Virus record (IMG/VR): IMGVR_UViG_3300025151_000373
Span: 1-21,044 of that record
Direction: 5' to 3' (one strand)
From: a virus
DNA: 21,044 nt
The translations under genes and the position numbers were made by a program. Numbering within the stretch: the first letter of the stretch is position 1; each line of letters begins with the position of its first letter. Positions 3,855 through 11,862 of this stretch are shown here, piece after piece. The notes under the pieces were generated by a model. The model ran no database searches. It worked only from the letters and a program-made list of their open reading frames with translations, and was not told where the DNA came from.

Positions 3855-4049
3855 CTAAAAAGGGAGATCCCTGTCTTCGTTGATTATATACAACTCTTCT
3901 TCCGTTGCATCTCTCCAACCCGTATCTGTCAACACCTCAGCAGAATAGATGTAAGCATCACAGAAGTCTGGGTAATCAGATGTTTCTATACCCTCTACTT
4001 GAAAAGATCTGATGTCCTTTACGTTTAGTTTTTTCAATAAATGTTTCAT
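3855..4049 (-). CDS. Small acidic early protein, 64 aa, unknown
   Basis: The product starts MKHLLKKLNVKDIRSFQVEG. The middle contains DYPDFCDAYIYSAEV and the end ELYIINEDRDLPF. Short proteins with a DYPDFCDAYI-type segment and a Glu/Asp-rich tail recur in phages and their hosts, in my recollection, but without assigned function. The gene starts four bases after the stop of its upstream neighbour, consistent with an operon. No catalytic residues can be named. Confidence 0.6.
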   Translation of the reverse strand: MKHLLKKLNVKDIRSFQVEGIETSDYPDFCDAYIYSAEVLTDTGWRDATEEELYIINEDRDLPF

Positions 4050-4053
4050 TGTA

Positions 4054-6587: not shown

Positions 6588-7454
6588 ATGATTGACTTTA
6601 AAACATTAGGCGAAGCCCTAAACCCGAACACCGGCCGAATAGCTGTCAAAGATTTGGCGCGCGAACTCGAAGCAATAAACAACCCAACACCGCCAGCGTA
6701 TAAGGTCCCGACTAAATTATTAGGGAAGAGCAACGCCAAAACAGAAAAAAACGACAGAGAGACGCATATTTTGTATCTAATACCAACGGACAAGAATAGC
6801 AAGAAAAAGAACCTTTGCCCTTTTGCCTCGAAAGGATGCGCGAAGGCCTGCTTAGTTAGTGCTGGCCGTGGTAAGTTTAACAACGTGAAAACGGCCCGAG
6901 GAAATAAAACCGAGTATTTCGTACAGGATCCGAAGACGTTCACCGCTCAACTAATATTAGAAATTGAGACACTAATAAGAAAAGCAAAGAAGGACGGCCG
7001 ACAAATTGCCGTTAGGCTCAACGGAACGGCGGATATTGACTTTTTGCACCTGTTTAAAAAATACCACGGCTGGAACTATGAAGAAAAAGCAGTCCAGCCC
7101 GGGACCAATGAACCCGGGGTTATTTTCTACGATTACACACCAAACCCACATAAATACAAAAGGTACAAGGGCACCAAATACGCCCTAATATTTAGTAAAA
7201 AGGAAGACAACGCCGAAGAGGTAGAAGATATCTTAAGCATAGGCGGTAAAGTGAGTGCAGTGTTCAAGGACGGATTACCAGAAACCCACAACGGGACCAA
7301 AGTAGTCAACGGCGATCTAAGAGACGATCTTATCATTGACATAGTAACAGACCCGGCGCCCGTGATCATAGGACTAAAGGCCAAAGGCGACGCCAAAAAA
7401 GATACAACCGGCTTTGTAATTACGGACCACCTAAACACCGGCGCCAATGTATAA
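6588..7454 (+). CDS. Gp88-like phage/mobile-element protein with CX6CX3C motif, 288 aa
   Basis: Residues 76-89 read LCPFASKGCAKACL, with C77, C84 and C88 spaced CX6CX3C, followed by SAGRGKF and a helical region. RLNGTADID (143-151) is a second conserved-looking block. This order recalls the phage Gp88 family, in which a Cys-rich LCP...C...C motif precedes a GR-rich loop and an R-x-N-G/x-T/S-D segment. That family has no established biochemical role that I can state. The cysteines could bind a metal or Fe-S cluster, but only three are in the cluster. It is the largest gene of the GC-rich block, and its stop overlaps the next start by eight bases. Confidence 0.65.
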   Translation: MIDFKTLGEALNPNTGRIAVKDLARELEAINNPTPPAYKVPTKLLGKSNAKTEKNDRETHILYLIPTDKNSKKKNLCPFASKGCAKACLVSAGRGKFNNVKTARGNKTEYFVQDPKTFTAQLILEIETLIRKAKKDGRQIAVRLNGTADIDFLHLFKKYHGWNYEEKAVQPGTNEPGVIFYDYTPNPHKYKRYKGTKYALIFSKKEDNAEEVEDILSIGGKVSAVFKDGLPETHNGTKVVNGDLRDDLIIDIVTDPAPVIIGLKAKGDAKKDTTGFVITDHLNTGANV

Positions 7455-8325: not shown

Positions 8326-8607
8326 ATGACAAGGAAAGCATTGATATTAGCTTTAGTAGGTGGTGGATTACCTAAGGGAGAACTCAAGGCGGAGATGTTC
8401 AAGTTCTACAATTCTATGGTAGGTAAGAGTAGATACTTCAAGAAGGAAGAGAACCCTAAGACAGCTTGTGGAAGTTGTATACAGAGGGTGAAGACTTCTA
8501 TATGGAAGTGGTATCATTACGATGAGAAAGCACCAACCTACAAAGAGATAATCTTTACGGGAAGGTTGGGCGCACATAACATACCCTTATACAAATTTGT
8601 GGAGTGA
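8326..8607 (+). CDS. First late gene, 93-aa protein upstream of small terminase
   Basis: The product starts MTRKALILALVGGGLPKGEL and contains ACGSCIQRVKTSIWKWYHYD with a CxxC pair, then a basic/aromatic C-terminus. The start is preceded by AACAAGATATTTT. Its stop (TGA 8605-8607) overlaps the ATG of the small-terminase candidate. Position suggests packaging or its control, possibly DNA binding, but no family is recognised. The hydrophobic N-terminus is short and glycine-rich, so I do not call a signal peptide. Confidence 0.65.
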   Translation: MTRKALILALVGGGLPKGELKAEMFKFYNSMVGKSRYFKKEENPKTACGSCIQRVKTSIWKWYHYDEKAPTYKEIIFTGRLGAHNIPLYKFVE

Positions 8608-9071
8608 TGGCAAGTGTTAGAGATAAGAACGGTAATGTAGTCAGAGGACTAGGTTCTGAACTTACAGATACTCAGAAGGAGTTTATTGATAAGGTAAAGA
8701 AGTACGGCTTTGACGAAGCCGCTAAGATAGCTTCAGAGATGAAGTATACCAACTACTACCGAGATAGGAGAACTATCGGCACAGCGTTCTATAACGAGCT
8801 TATGAAGATAGTAGCATCTGAAGGGATGCAGATAGAAGCAGCGAAAGGTTCTAACATTAGAGCATTGATAAACATCAGAGACAAAGCACTACGTGCTGGA
8901 GATGATAAAGCTGCAATGGAAGCCATTAAGATACTGAACGATATGCAGGGTTATAAAGCTCCTACAAAGGTTCAACAAACTAAGATAGATGTGAAAGCTA
9001 CTATCGACCTAACCAAAGAACCTGATGAAGAAGCTGATAGTTATATTGATATTGATTACATTAACGAGTAA
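8607..9071 (+). CDS. Terminase small subunit candidate, 154 aa
   Basis: I chose ATG 8607 (MASVRDKNGN) over GTG 8604. Residues 15-50 form a helical, HTH-like segment (LTDTQKEFIDKVKKYGFDEA, then YYRDRR) of the kind that recognises packaging sites. The middle is a helical oligomerisation region. The tail (TKIDVKATIDLTKEPDEEAD) is acidic, as in many small terminases, where it contacts the large subunit. Location before the large terminase supports the call. Its last 47 bases also encode the start of the exported protein in another frame. Confidence 0.65.
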   Translation: MASVRDKNGNVVRGLGSELTDTQKEFIDKVKKYGFDEAAKIASEMKYTNYYRDRRTIGTAFYNELMKIVASEGMQIEAAKGSNIRALINIRDKALRAGDDKAAMEAIKILNDMQGYKAPTKVQQTKIDVKATIDLTKEPDEEADSYIDIDYINE

Positions 9072-9453
9072 CGCTCAAGAGTGTAATCCGTATTTTGGTA
9101 TCAATAATTATGAGTTAGATAAGTCTAAGTCGGCAGGTATAGCTTATGTAGCTTGTGTACACGCAACAGGTGTAGCAGCTGAAGTAGGTTACGACAATTT
9201 GTTTGTAGGTGTCTTAGCAATGGGTCAAGGGCATCACGGAGCGACCTACGGATATATCCACTACGAATACTACACAGACCTTTACAGGGTATACGCTGGA
9301 CCTGCATACCGACTAAACAACGACCCTGCGCTAATGATAGGTAGAGCAGGCATAGATGTTAAAGCGTATAAAAACTTTTACATTACCTTTAGCCTACTTC
9401 AAGTAACCACCAACTTAAACTACTTTCACTACGGAGTAAAAGTAATATACTGA
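9025..9453 (+). CDS. Exported outer-membrane beta-barrel-like protein, 142 aa
   Basis: The N-terminus MKKLIVILILITLTSNAQ is a classical Sec signal peptide, with likely cleavage after A17. The mature part has alternating Tyr/Gly/hydrophobic strands (VGYDNLFVGVLAMG, GYIHYEYYTDLYRVYAGPAY) and ends in an aromatic residue (KVIY), as outer-membrane barrels do. Unusually for a packaging cluster, it sits between the terminase genes. The first 47 bases overlap the small-terminase gene in another frame. Its stop abuts the large-terminase start (9453). A host-surface change such as superinfection exclusion is a plausible role but unproven. Confidence 0.75.
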   Translation: MKKLIVILILITLTSNAQECNPYFGINNYELDKSKSAGIAYVACVHATGVAAEVGYDNLFVGVLAMGQGHHGATYGYIHYEYYTDLYRVYAGPAYRLNNDPALMIGRAGIDVKAYKNFYITFSLLQVTTNLNYFHYGVKVIY

Positions 9454-10703
9454 TGGAGATAAAATTATACAATCCTACTAAGCCACAGAAAGATTTTCTG
9501 CGTATCATCTACGAGGATAAGCCTTTTATCACACTAGCGGCTATGGGTAGGCAGACGGGTAAAACCTACTGTATGCAGAACGATGCAGTGATGCGTGCTT
9601 TGAATAATAAGAAGCACAGAATGTTTTGGGTGTCTCCTATACAAGACCAAGCAAACAAGGTGATGAAAGACATCGAGAGTATGTTTAGCAACCATCAGGA
9701 TTTGTTTAGTCAGATAATTACAAGGTTTGACAGGAAGCACAATGAGATTTATTTTTATAACGGTAGCTTTATTAAATTTCGTTCTTCTGAGGCAGGGGAT
9801 AATCTTCGTGGTGCCACGCTTGATTTTATCTATATTGACGAAGGAGCTTTTATTAAAGAAGCATTTATTAACGAAGTGCTTTTACCGATGGTTACACGGA
9901 CGAACGGACGAGTAGTAATGAGCAGTACCTTTAACGGTAAGAATTGGTATTGGGATTGGTATCAGCGAGGGTTGAAGGAAGATAACGCTAAGCAGATAAA
10001 AAGCATCAAGAAAACCTACCTTGACTTAAACGACCCTGATGTAGAGCGTACAGTATTAGGTATTAAGAAGTCAATGACTAAGGCACAGTTCGACCAAGAG
10101 TTTTTATGTAGACCTGTGAGTGCAGATGCTCTATTCTCCAACATTGAGGATGCGGTGGTTAAAGATGTAGTACAAGAGTACGAGAGAATCTATATCGGTA
10201 TGGATATTGGTGTAGCACAGGATTACACAGTGCTTACAGCACTAACTCAAGACTACGAGGTGATAGACATTGATAGGTTCAACTTCAAGGAACAAGGATT
10301 AGACTCTACAGAATTTAAGCAACGTATTAAAGATTTTTACCTTAAACACTTTGATAAACTTGCAGCGGCATACTTTGAGGTGAACAACAACGATTTATTA
10401 TTCGATGAGATTAGCGATGACGATAAAATGTATAAGCTAATACCGTTCCAAACGACAAGCAAGAGCAAACCTGAAATCATTAGAAACCTTATTAAGCTTT
10501 TCGAAGACCATAAGATTAAAATACCTAACTACGATGTATTGGTAAAAGAGTTGTACGATTATAAGAGTAAGAGAAACCCTATCACGGGGAACTTACAGTT
10601 TTCTAATACCGAGGGTAAGCACGATGACTGTGTAATGAGTTTAGCCATTGCTGCCTATTGTGCTGCAGAGGAACAAGATGGTGGTATAACGATGTTCTTA
10701 TGA
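9453..10703 (+). CDS. terL: Terminase large subunit, 416 aa
   Basis: The ATPase-nuclease packaging motor is recognised by a Walker A motif GRQTGKT (32-38), a Walker B motif LDFIYIDE (123-130, with D129 and E130 as the Mg and catalytic residues) and a coupling motif MSST (156-159). The RNase H-like nuclease acidic residues are D251 in GMDIG, E309 in YFEVNN and D391/D392 in HDDCVMSLAIA. Length is normal for a compact terminase. The start overlaps the stop of the exported protein by one base, and its stop overlaps the next ATG (ATGA at 10700-10703). Confidence 0.93.
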   Translation: MEIKLYNPTKPQKDFLRIIYEDKPFITLAAMGRQTGKTYCMQNDAVMRALNNKKHRMFWVSPIQDQANKVMKDIESMFSNHQDLFSQIITRFDRKHNEIYFYNGSFIKFRSSEAGDNLRGATLDFIYIDEGAFIKEAFINEVLLPMVTRTNGRVVMSSTFNGKNWYWDWYQRGLKEDNAKQIKSIKKTYLDLNDPDVERTVLGIKKSMTKAQFDQEFLCRPVSADALFSNIEDAVVKDVVQEYERIYIGMDIGVAQDYTVLTALTQDYEVIDIDRFNFKEQGLDSTEFKQRIKDFYLKHFDKLAAAYFEVNNNDLLFDEISDDDKMYKLIPFQTTSKSKPEIIRNLIKLFEDHKIKIPNYDVLVKELYDYKSKRNPITGNLQFSNTEGKHDDCVMSLAIAAYCAAEEQDGGITMFL

Positions 10704-11404
10704 TTACATTACGAAAGCATATTGAGCTGATGCAGCATATCCAATCGGGTGATACTGTATCTAATTTTATGGAAAGTATGAAGCCTTTAGAAGCTTTAGA
10801 TTTTAGCAGGGCATCAAACAAGACTTACCCTATACAGCAGAACATTAAACAACCTAGTGTAGATAAAAAGATATACACTACCGTTGAGTCTTTAGTACTA
10901 GGACAGTTTATTATGCTGGAACAGATTATTACCCGTAAAACTAAGCTTGCAGACCATTTAATAGACTTTGAGATAGCTAAACTGCTTATCAGACCTTCAA
11001 ATCATATAGTGTTTGATAACGAAGATATTAAAGAAGAAAAGGCTAATGAGCAAGACATATTAGATATGGATGTCTTAGAGGTGTATTGGGTGTTAGACAA
11101 CTTTATTGAAAATAGAAATAAGACATTGTTTGAGGATTTCTCAGGGGTGTTCTACGATGTTCCTGATGAAAACGAAGAGCAGGAAGAACAGACCGAAGAA
11201 GAGAAGACCTCAGAGATGTTATTCAACCAACAATGGTATTGGTACTCTATTGTGAGAATGTTAGGCAACGAGGACATTACTAAATACAGTGAAATATATA
11301 TGTTGAATATGAGTACTGTATTACCTGAGATGTCCTTCCTAGCACAGCGTAGTAAGATAGAATCTGCTAAAGAAAGACAAAGGCAGGCTATGAGTAAATT
11401 GTAA
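10700..11404 (+). CDS. Tail assembly chaperone candidate, 234 aa
   Basis: The ATGA overlap at 10700 picks the start MITLRKHIELMQHIQSGDTV over an earlier in-frame ATG at 10658. The middle has an acidic Glu-rich stretch (DENEEQEEQTEEEKTSEM). The C-terminal part (QQWYWYSIVRMLGNEDITKY) resembles the Trp/Tyr-rich ends of tail assembly chaperone proteins of Bacteroidetes phages, which lie upstream of the tape measure. Three genes intervene less tightly than in lambda (gpG/gpGT), and no frameshift pair is apparent. The assignment is moderate. Confidence 0.5.
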   Translation: MITLRKHIELMQHIQSGDTVSNFMESMKPLEALDFSRASNKTYPIQQNIKQPSVDKKIYTTVESLVLGQFIMLEQIITRKTKLADHLIDFEIAKLLIRPSNHIVFDNEDIKEEKANEQDILDMDVLEVYWVLDNFIENRNKTLFEDFSGVFYDVPDENEEQEEQTEEEKTSEMLFNQQWYWYSIVRMLGNEDITKYSEIYMLNMSTVLPEMSFLAQRSKIESAKERQRQAMSKL

Positions 11405-11408
11405 ATTA
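11398..11408 (+). promoter_or_regulatory. Late-gene motif ATTGTAAATTA, copy 2
   Basis: The motif spans the stop codon of the 234-aa gene and lies 13 bases before the GTG of the next. It is followed by AGAAGG, the clearest Shine-Dalgarno-like stretch among the late genes. Confidence 0.45.
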
Positions 11409-11421
11409 CAAAAAGAAGGTT

Positions 11422-11862
11422 GTGAACGATTTAATTAGTATTTACGAGCTGTTTGAGCAGTTTGGAACAACTCACAATATGGTGAGTACATTTAAGCTAC
11501 TGAACAGCATAGAAGACCTTGAAAGAATAGAGATGGGTTATCGTGGTATGTATATCGCTCTAAACGATGCAAACATATCAAGAGAAGATTCAAGTCCTGT
11601 ATACGATATTAACTTTGATATTGTTATCGTTGACAGAACAGACAAAGACGATTCGTTAGCTTTGATGAACTCTAATCAGGAGAATTTATTTGTGATGGGT
11701 CAACTTCAAGACTACTTCATACAAAACCTTGACGGAAGCCAAAGTTTCCAAGAGGTGAGTATGCGTGGTTTCTCAGACGATGATTACAACATCACAGCAG
11801 CTATAAGCTCCGCTACCTTTATTGTAGGTAGAAATCCTTACATCAAAGGAATTGATATTTAA
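11422..11862 (+). CDS. Neck/tail completion candidate, 146 aa
   Basis: Translation is placed at GTG 11422, six bases after AGAAGG. The product (MNDLISIYELFEQFGTTHN) is acidic and beta-rich in the middle (YDINFDIVIVDRTDKDD), ending in GRNPYIKGIDI. Small proteins of this size between terminase/chaperone and tape measure are often tail-terminator or completion proteins. That is positional inference. The stop overlaps the next ATG by one base (TAATG). Confidence 0.5.
   Translation: MNDLISIYELFEQFGTTHNMVSTFKLLNSIEDLERIEMGYRGMYIALNDANISREDSSPVYDINFDIVIVDRTDKDDSLALMNSNQENLFVMGQLQDYFIQNLDGSQSFQEVSMRGFSDDDYNITAAISSATFIVGRNPYIKGIDI

Follow-up and report, generated by a model that had tools for sequence, protein, structure and literature searches.

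A gene for a putative outer-membrane beta-barrel protein lies between the terminase genes of the window, the whole 21,044-nucleotide stretch of viral DNA analysed here, and starts inside the end of the upstream terminase gene. Comparison with related junctions suggests that the barrel was inserted between terS and terL, that the front of its signal peptide was overprinted on the tail of terS, and that this tail and the barrel recombine as one cassette; we give these three steps jointly a probability of about 0.78. The barrel is an accessory, moron-like phage gene, present at this site in a minority of one tailed-phage group.

Results and Discussion

Overlap of the barrel gene with terS

The features of the region are collected in Table 1. 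Across positions 9025-9071 the TerS frame ends with DEEADSYIDIDYINE and a stop codon, and the barrel frame begins MKKLIVILILITLTSN-AQ. The acidic terminase tail in one frame and the export signal in the other, as proposed in the preliminary description, can thus both be read in the sequence, and the extent given there is exact, 47 nt being common to the open reading frames at 8604-9071 and 9025-9453. The ATG at 9025 is the first start codon downstream of the barrel-frame TAA at 9010-9012. Further in-frame start codons within the overlap are TTG 9046 and TTG 9052; past 9071, the next possible start is TTG 9199, from which the first two strands of the barrel would be lost. The predicted signal peptide has lysines at positions 2 and 3 and a hydrophobic core (maximum 9-residue Kyte-Doolittle value of 3.66), with cleavage expected before Gln18. 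At the other end of the barrel gene, the TGATG junction is of the same type as the terS-terL junction of many phages in which the barrel is absent.

Table 1. Coordinates of features in the terS-barrel-terL region of the window.
Feature	Position	Strand	Details and basis
Upstream open reading frame (TerS by position)	8604/8607..9071	+	GTG 8604, 155 aa; ATG 8607, 154 aa; ORF list
Conserved ATIDLT motif of TerS, then acidic tail	within 8607..9071	+	Alignment
Barrel-frame TAA, closing the barrel ORF four codons before the ATG	9010..9012	+	Read from sequence
Dual-coding overlap, 47 nt	9025..9071	+	TerS tail DEEADSYIDIDYINE and stop; barrel signal peptide MKKLIVILILITLTS(N)
Predicted signal peptide, M1-A17	9025..9075	+	Sequence, hydrophobicity, invariant Q18/C20
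Putative outer-membrane barrel gene, ATG start, 142 aa	9025..9453	+	ORF, structure prediction, dN/dS
TGATG: barrel stop shares 1 nt with TerL start	9451..9455	+	Sequence
TerL, large terminase, 416 aa	9453..10703	+	Pfam Terminase_6N 1.2e-20; phrog_2 1.7e-45

The name TerS rests on position next to TerL: the protein gave no profile match above noise and no convincing match to a solved structure, and the gene precedes TerL in all 78 distinct junctions examined. A search of the plus strand found no sigma-70 promoter near the barrel gene, and a search of literature titles and abstracts found nothing relevant on a signal peptide overlapping a terminase gene.

Eight carriers, every one of them metagenomic, have a readable junction, and in each the overlap measures 47 or 50 nt. 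That it is kept alongside different terminases, in the window and in seven relatives, argues that it is not due to chance. The homologous start codon is ATG in six carriers (the window, L002, L028, L034, L053 and L090), GTG in L003 and TTG in L098, and a stop in the barrel frame lies three to four codons upstream of it. Among close pairs, dN/dS for the mature barrel is 0.19 (window and L002) and 0.14 (L028 and L034), values indicating that this part of the protein is under purifying selection.

Predicted structure of the barrel protein

The preliminary description had called the product an outer-membrane barrel candidate, and structure prediction bears this out. The AlphaFold2 model (pLDDT 79, with residues 17-31 unreliable) contains a signal helix followed by eight strands, formed by residues 35-43, 48-56, 59-66, 74-83, 87-96, 104-115, 118-128 and 131-141, and the mature protein is expected to fold into an eight-stranded outer-membrane beta-barrel. 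Its best matches among solved structures are a designed TMB (VIA Z of 15.4), OmpW (15.2), OprF (15.2) and OmpA (14.7). The transmembrane domains of OmpA, OprF and OmpW are likewise small eight-stranded outer-membrane barrels, but sequence identity is only 9-17%, and the window protein lacks a periplasmic domain and has minimal loops. Viral fold matches are the predicted barrels of Vibrio phage nt-1, Tenacibaculum phage Gundel_1 and Cellulophaga phages. Lom/Ail-type barrels and other Omp-like proteins of phages resemble it in being small, exported and accessory; however, the window barrel has no sequence or Pfam relation to them, lies between terminase genes, starts inside terS and has very short, conserved loops. 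None of the 15 family members matches a Pfam family at E<=0.1, the Ail/Lom, OmpA, PagL and PagP families included.

The 15 relatives align without large gaps. Small outer-membrane barrels have, as standard, both their amino- and carboxy-termini in the periplasm; with the orientation inferred in this way, the presumed outer loops are residues 44-47, 67-73, 97-103 and 129-130, only 2-7 residues long. They hold some of the most conserved stretches of the protein (CxHA, GxGHHGAT and LNxxP), and, being both short and conserved, are unlike those of a variable, antigen-like surface protein. Gln18, Cys20, Cys44, His46 and His70 are invariant in the alignment, the two histidines lying in presumed outer loops, and His135 and Asn98 are also conserved. 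A disulfide between Cys20 and Cys44 (a region encoded at 9082-9156 of the window) is difficult to envisage, as it would have to connect an outer loop with the periplasmic end of the protein; the model does not allow it to be judged, because residues 17-31 are unreliable.

Insertion of the barrel between terS and terL

Scans of viral contigs with TerL yielded 78 distinct terS-terL junctions, the window being counted besides. In 68 of these the two genes are directly adjacent or overlap, most often by 1 or 11 nt, and seven contain the barrel, so that the lodging of this gene among packaging genes, described for the window, recurs in its relatives. Two further junctions have an 87-nt gap and one a gene resembling a homing endonuclease. 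The latter, of GIY-YIG type (L022, positions 115-648; phrog_314, 6.9e-29), belongs to a phage in which the barrel is absent; an enzyme of this kind at the junction could help neighbouring inserts to spread.

The comparison of relatives with and without the barrel gene, suggested in the preliminary description, settles part of its origin. The closest filled and empty junctions, L098 and L044, differ by a clean insertion of 394 nt, placed between ...GATATTG and ACTGATG(terL)..., from which we infer that the barrel was inserted. In L098 the insertion begins at position 1480, 33 nt past the barrel start at 1447; these 33 nt, comprising the start codon and the next ten codons of the signal peptide, belong to terS sequence that L044 has too. 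Between L002 and L007, the latter being the nearest empty relative of the window, the insertion is 397 nt long and 28 nt of signal coding lie in the old terS, in an alignment that is less clean because the tails differ. The gene had been described as either inserted or evolved by overprinting, and both apply, each to its own part: insertion accounts for the mature barrel and the final residues of the signal peptide, and overprinting on pre-existing terS sequence for the start codon, the basic stretch and the greater part of the hydrophobic core. The first step is shown by these comparisons: about 394-397 nt that code for the barrel and the closing stretch of its signal peptide lie between the terS tail and terL, the terS stop now falls within inserted DNA, and the barrel stop overlaps the ATG of terL.

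Probable overprinting of the front of the signal peptide on the TerS tail

The tail of TerS in the carrier L053 reads PDEEQDYLDIDAELLDG and that of the non-carriers L069, L075 and L077 PDEEQDYLDIDAD, each followed by a stop. The carrier tail PDEEQDYLDIDA has the same residues as these non-carrier tails, and inside the overlap the match is residue by residue over EEQDYLDIDA. In the second frame, the same tail encodes MKSKIILILML in L053, and MKSKTIWI followed by a stop in L075 and also in L064. The mark of overprinting, an older frame conserved where the newer one is absent, is therefore found here, for the overlap only.

The second frame is open in all eight carriers (mean best hydrophobicity 3.1) versus 10 of 50 non-carriers, a contrast that is not an independent test, since carriers are open by definition and are partly related. 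When the carriers' own tails were resampled synonymously, a frame that was open, hydrophobic and provided with a start arose in only 0.2-6% of draws; such rarity indicates that the codon choice of the carriers is held rather than incidental. These observations strongly support a second step: the beginning of the signal peptide, from the start codon through the basic stretch and most of its hydrophobic core, is read from the old acidic terS tail, where codon choices keep the second frame open. The idea that acidic tails are a near-free source of signal peptides was rejected, with 2.0% against 1.9% for other 16-residue segments.

A gene born by overprinting has been described in htgA over yaaW (PMC2268670). 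The likeness lies in a new frame opened inside an existing gene through codon-level change; in contrast to htgA, overprinting would here be confined to the start codon and the leading part of the signal peptide, the rest being an inserted, pre-existing gene. The junction would offer a natural example, with empty-site relatives, of how an inserted gene can obtain an export signal of which it brought only a part, the leading residues being written over the tail of a conserved protein.

Probable movement of tail and barrel as one cassette

On the TerL tree the carriers are scattered, requiring five to six state changes, and the cassette, as judged from this tree, was either moved or repeatedly lost. 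On the barrel tree, the window, L002, L053, L028 and L034 form one clade (100/99), which is not a clade on the TerL tree. L053 and L028 are 84% identical in the tail, compared with 68% in the terS body and 72-77% in terL. Tail and barrel appear to be exchanged jointly, their overlap leaving the signal peptide bound to the tail, and a third step in which they act as a single recombining cassette is supported.

Scattered carriers would also be found if the barrel were ancestral at the terS-terL site and had been lost many times, the non-carriers being deletions, and a barrel tree of 15 rows allows a single terS-linked origin. We nevertheless consider repeated loss improbable: about 90% of junctions are empty, in two tidy junction forms, and in L053 and L028 the tail goes with the barrel and not with the terS body. 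A 35-row barrel tree requires two label changes, although a single clade is not rejected (p-AU 0.09). The region directly after terL in the window (10701-11452) resembles its counterparts in the carriers L028 and L053 (79-82%) more than those in nearer, barrel-less TerL relatives (61-73%), an additional sign of mosaicism.

Barrels outside the terminase locus

A scan with the 15-row barrel alignment gave 53 loci. The family, previously unnamed, occurs in several kinds of marine phage genomes. Outside terS, the barrel often starts inside or at the end of an upstream open reading frame. In four loci from unrelated phages (L093, L094, L097 and L100, near positions 3886-4053), this is a conserved frame of 48-49 aa that overlaps the barrel start by 44-47 nt; other contexts include a frame of 95-104 aa overlapping by 1-34 nt and a thioesterase or nuclease-like gene overlapping by 4 nt.

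In L204, L205, L206, L208 and L214, the barrel lies away from terS and has a signal peptide from position 3956. This signal peptide, MKIKILLILILLTTLGKGQEC, is similar to the terS-linked ones; translated in the terS frame, it yields NEDKDSIDTDIADDLG, an acidic sequence resembling a terS tail that stops at the same point, and on the tree these barrels are sisters of the terS-linked barrel of L098 (96/90). Such loci would be expected had the barrel arrived with a complete signal peptide whose alternate frame then replaced the terS tail, the tail being the donor's shadow frame. We regard this as unlikely, given the residue-by-residue agreement of carrier and non-carrier tails inside the overlap and the unrelated signal peptides of most other barrels outside terS. 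The same agreement favours the simpler reading of L204, that an overprinted signal peptide left terS together with its barrel, over L204 as donor. Chance is a further possibility, since an acidic reading of the second frame could arise from a signal peptide of comparable composition. Insertion together with overprinting remains our preferred account, and tentatively it may be extended: a mobile barrel might take its export signal and start from the coding sequence ahead of its landing site, L204 keeping the ghost of a terminase tail.

Possible function

Translation of the barrel would be coupled to that of terS in a late operon. Sec would export the protein, the signal peptide would be removed ahead of Gln18, and BAM would insert the barrel into the outer membrane. 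A late change of the host surface, such as a block of re-adsorption or of a receptor, may follow; this is our best single guess at a function, made by analogy and held with reserve. The family forms a ready set for asking what a phage gains from adding a protein to the outer membrane of its host.

More specifically, the barrel may be a superinfection-exclusion or receptor-masking protein, a possibility we hold just as tentatively. Such a role is known for phage proteins of the outer membrane, T5 Llp excluding superinfection by jamming FhuA (PMC9586334), and the barrel gene is dispensable in the group, sits among late genes and encodes a product predicted to be exported. However, superinfection-exclusion proteins are expressed early in many phages (PMC9586334), whereas the barrel gene sits between packaging genes, and outer loops as short and conserved as those presumed here do not favour this role. 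Llp and Cor, like the window protein, are small phage products predicted to reach the outer membrane, but they are lipoproteins; the window barrel has no lipobox, its invariant cysteine being reached through AQEC with Glu (or Gln) at position -1, and is a predicted barrel.

A role like that of PagP or PagL, as an enzyme or ligand binder in the outer membrane, seems a poorer prospect. The fold is the same (VIA Z of 13.2 for PagL and 11.1 for PagP), and the invariant His46 and His70 in presumed outer loops, Asn98 and two invariant cysteines would suit such a role, but many unrelated barrels score as high and the whole family of 15 is without a Pfam match. PagP, the lipid A palmitoyltransferase, has catalytic His, Asp and Ser residues at the surface, and PagL, the lipid A 3-O-deacylase, has a catalytic HxSN motif plus a Glu. 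Membership of the PagL family was rejected on Pfam and on the motif: the window protein contains no HxS, and its conserved His46, His70 and His135 stand outside any such motif.

Phages and hosts

Barrel relatives were not found in isolated phages, and searches of GTDB contigs with the barrel or TerL alignment gave no bacterial homologue or host prophage, although these searches were pattern-based and could miss distant relatives. One barrel has next to it a thioesterase that shares 71% identity with its counterpart in Flavobacterium phage immuto, and the tape-measure gene of the window has its lowest E-value, among the matches listed, to Flavobacterium phage hattifnatt (5e-30). On the basis of these two matches, the carriers are probably uncultured phages of flavobacterial hosts. 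Elsewhere in the window, positions 6588-7454 hold a gene of the GP88 family (Pfam PF17338, 4e-31), which has relatives in uncultured marine, Pelagibacter and Mycobacterium phages.
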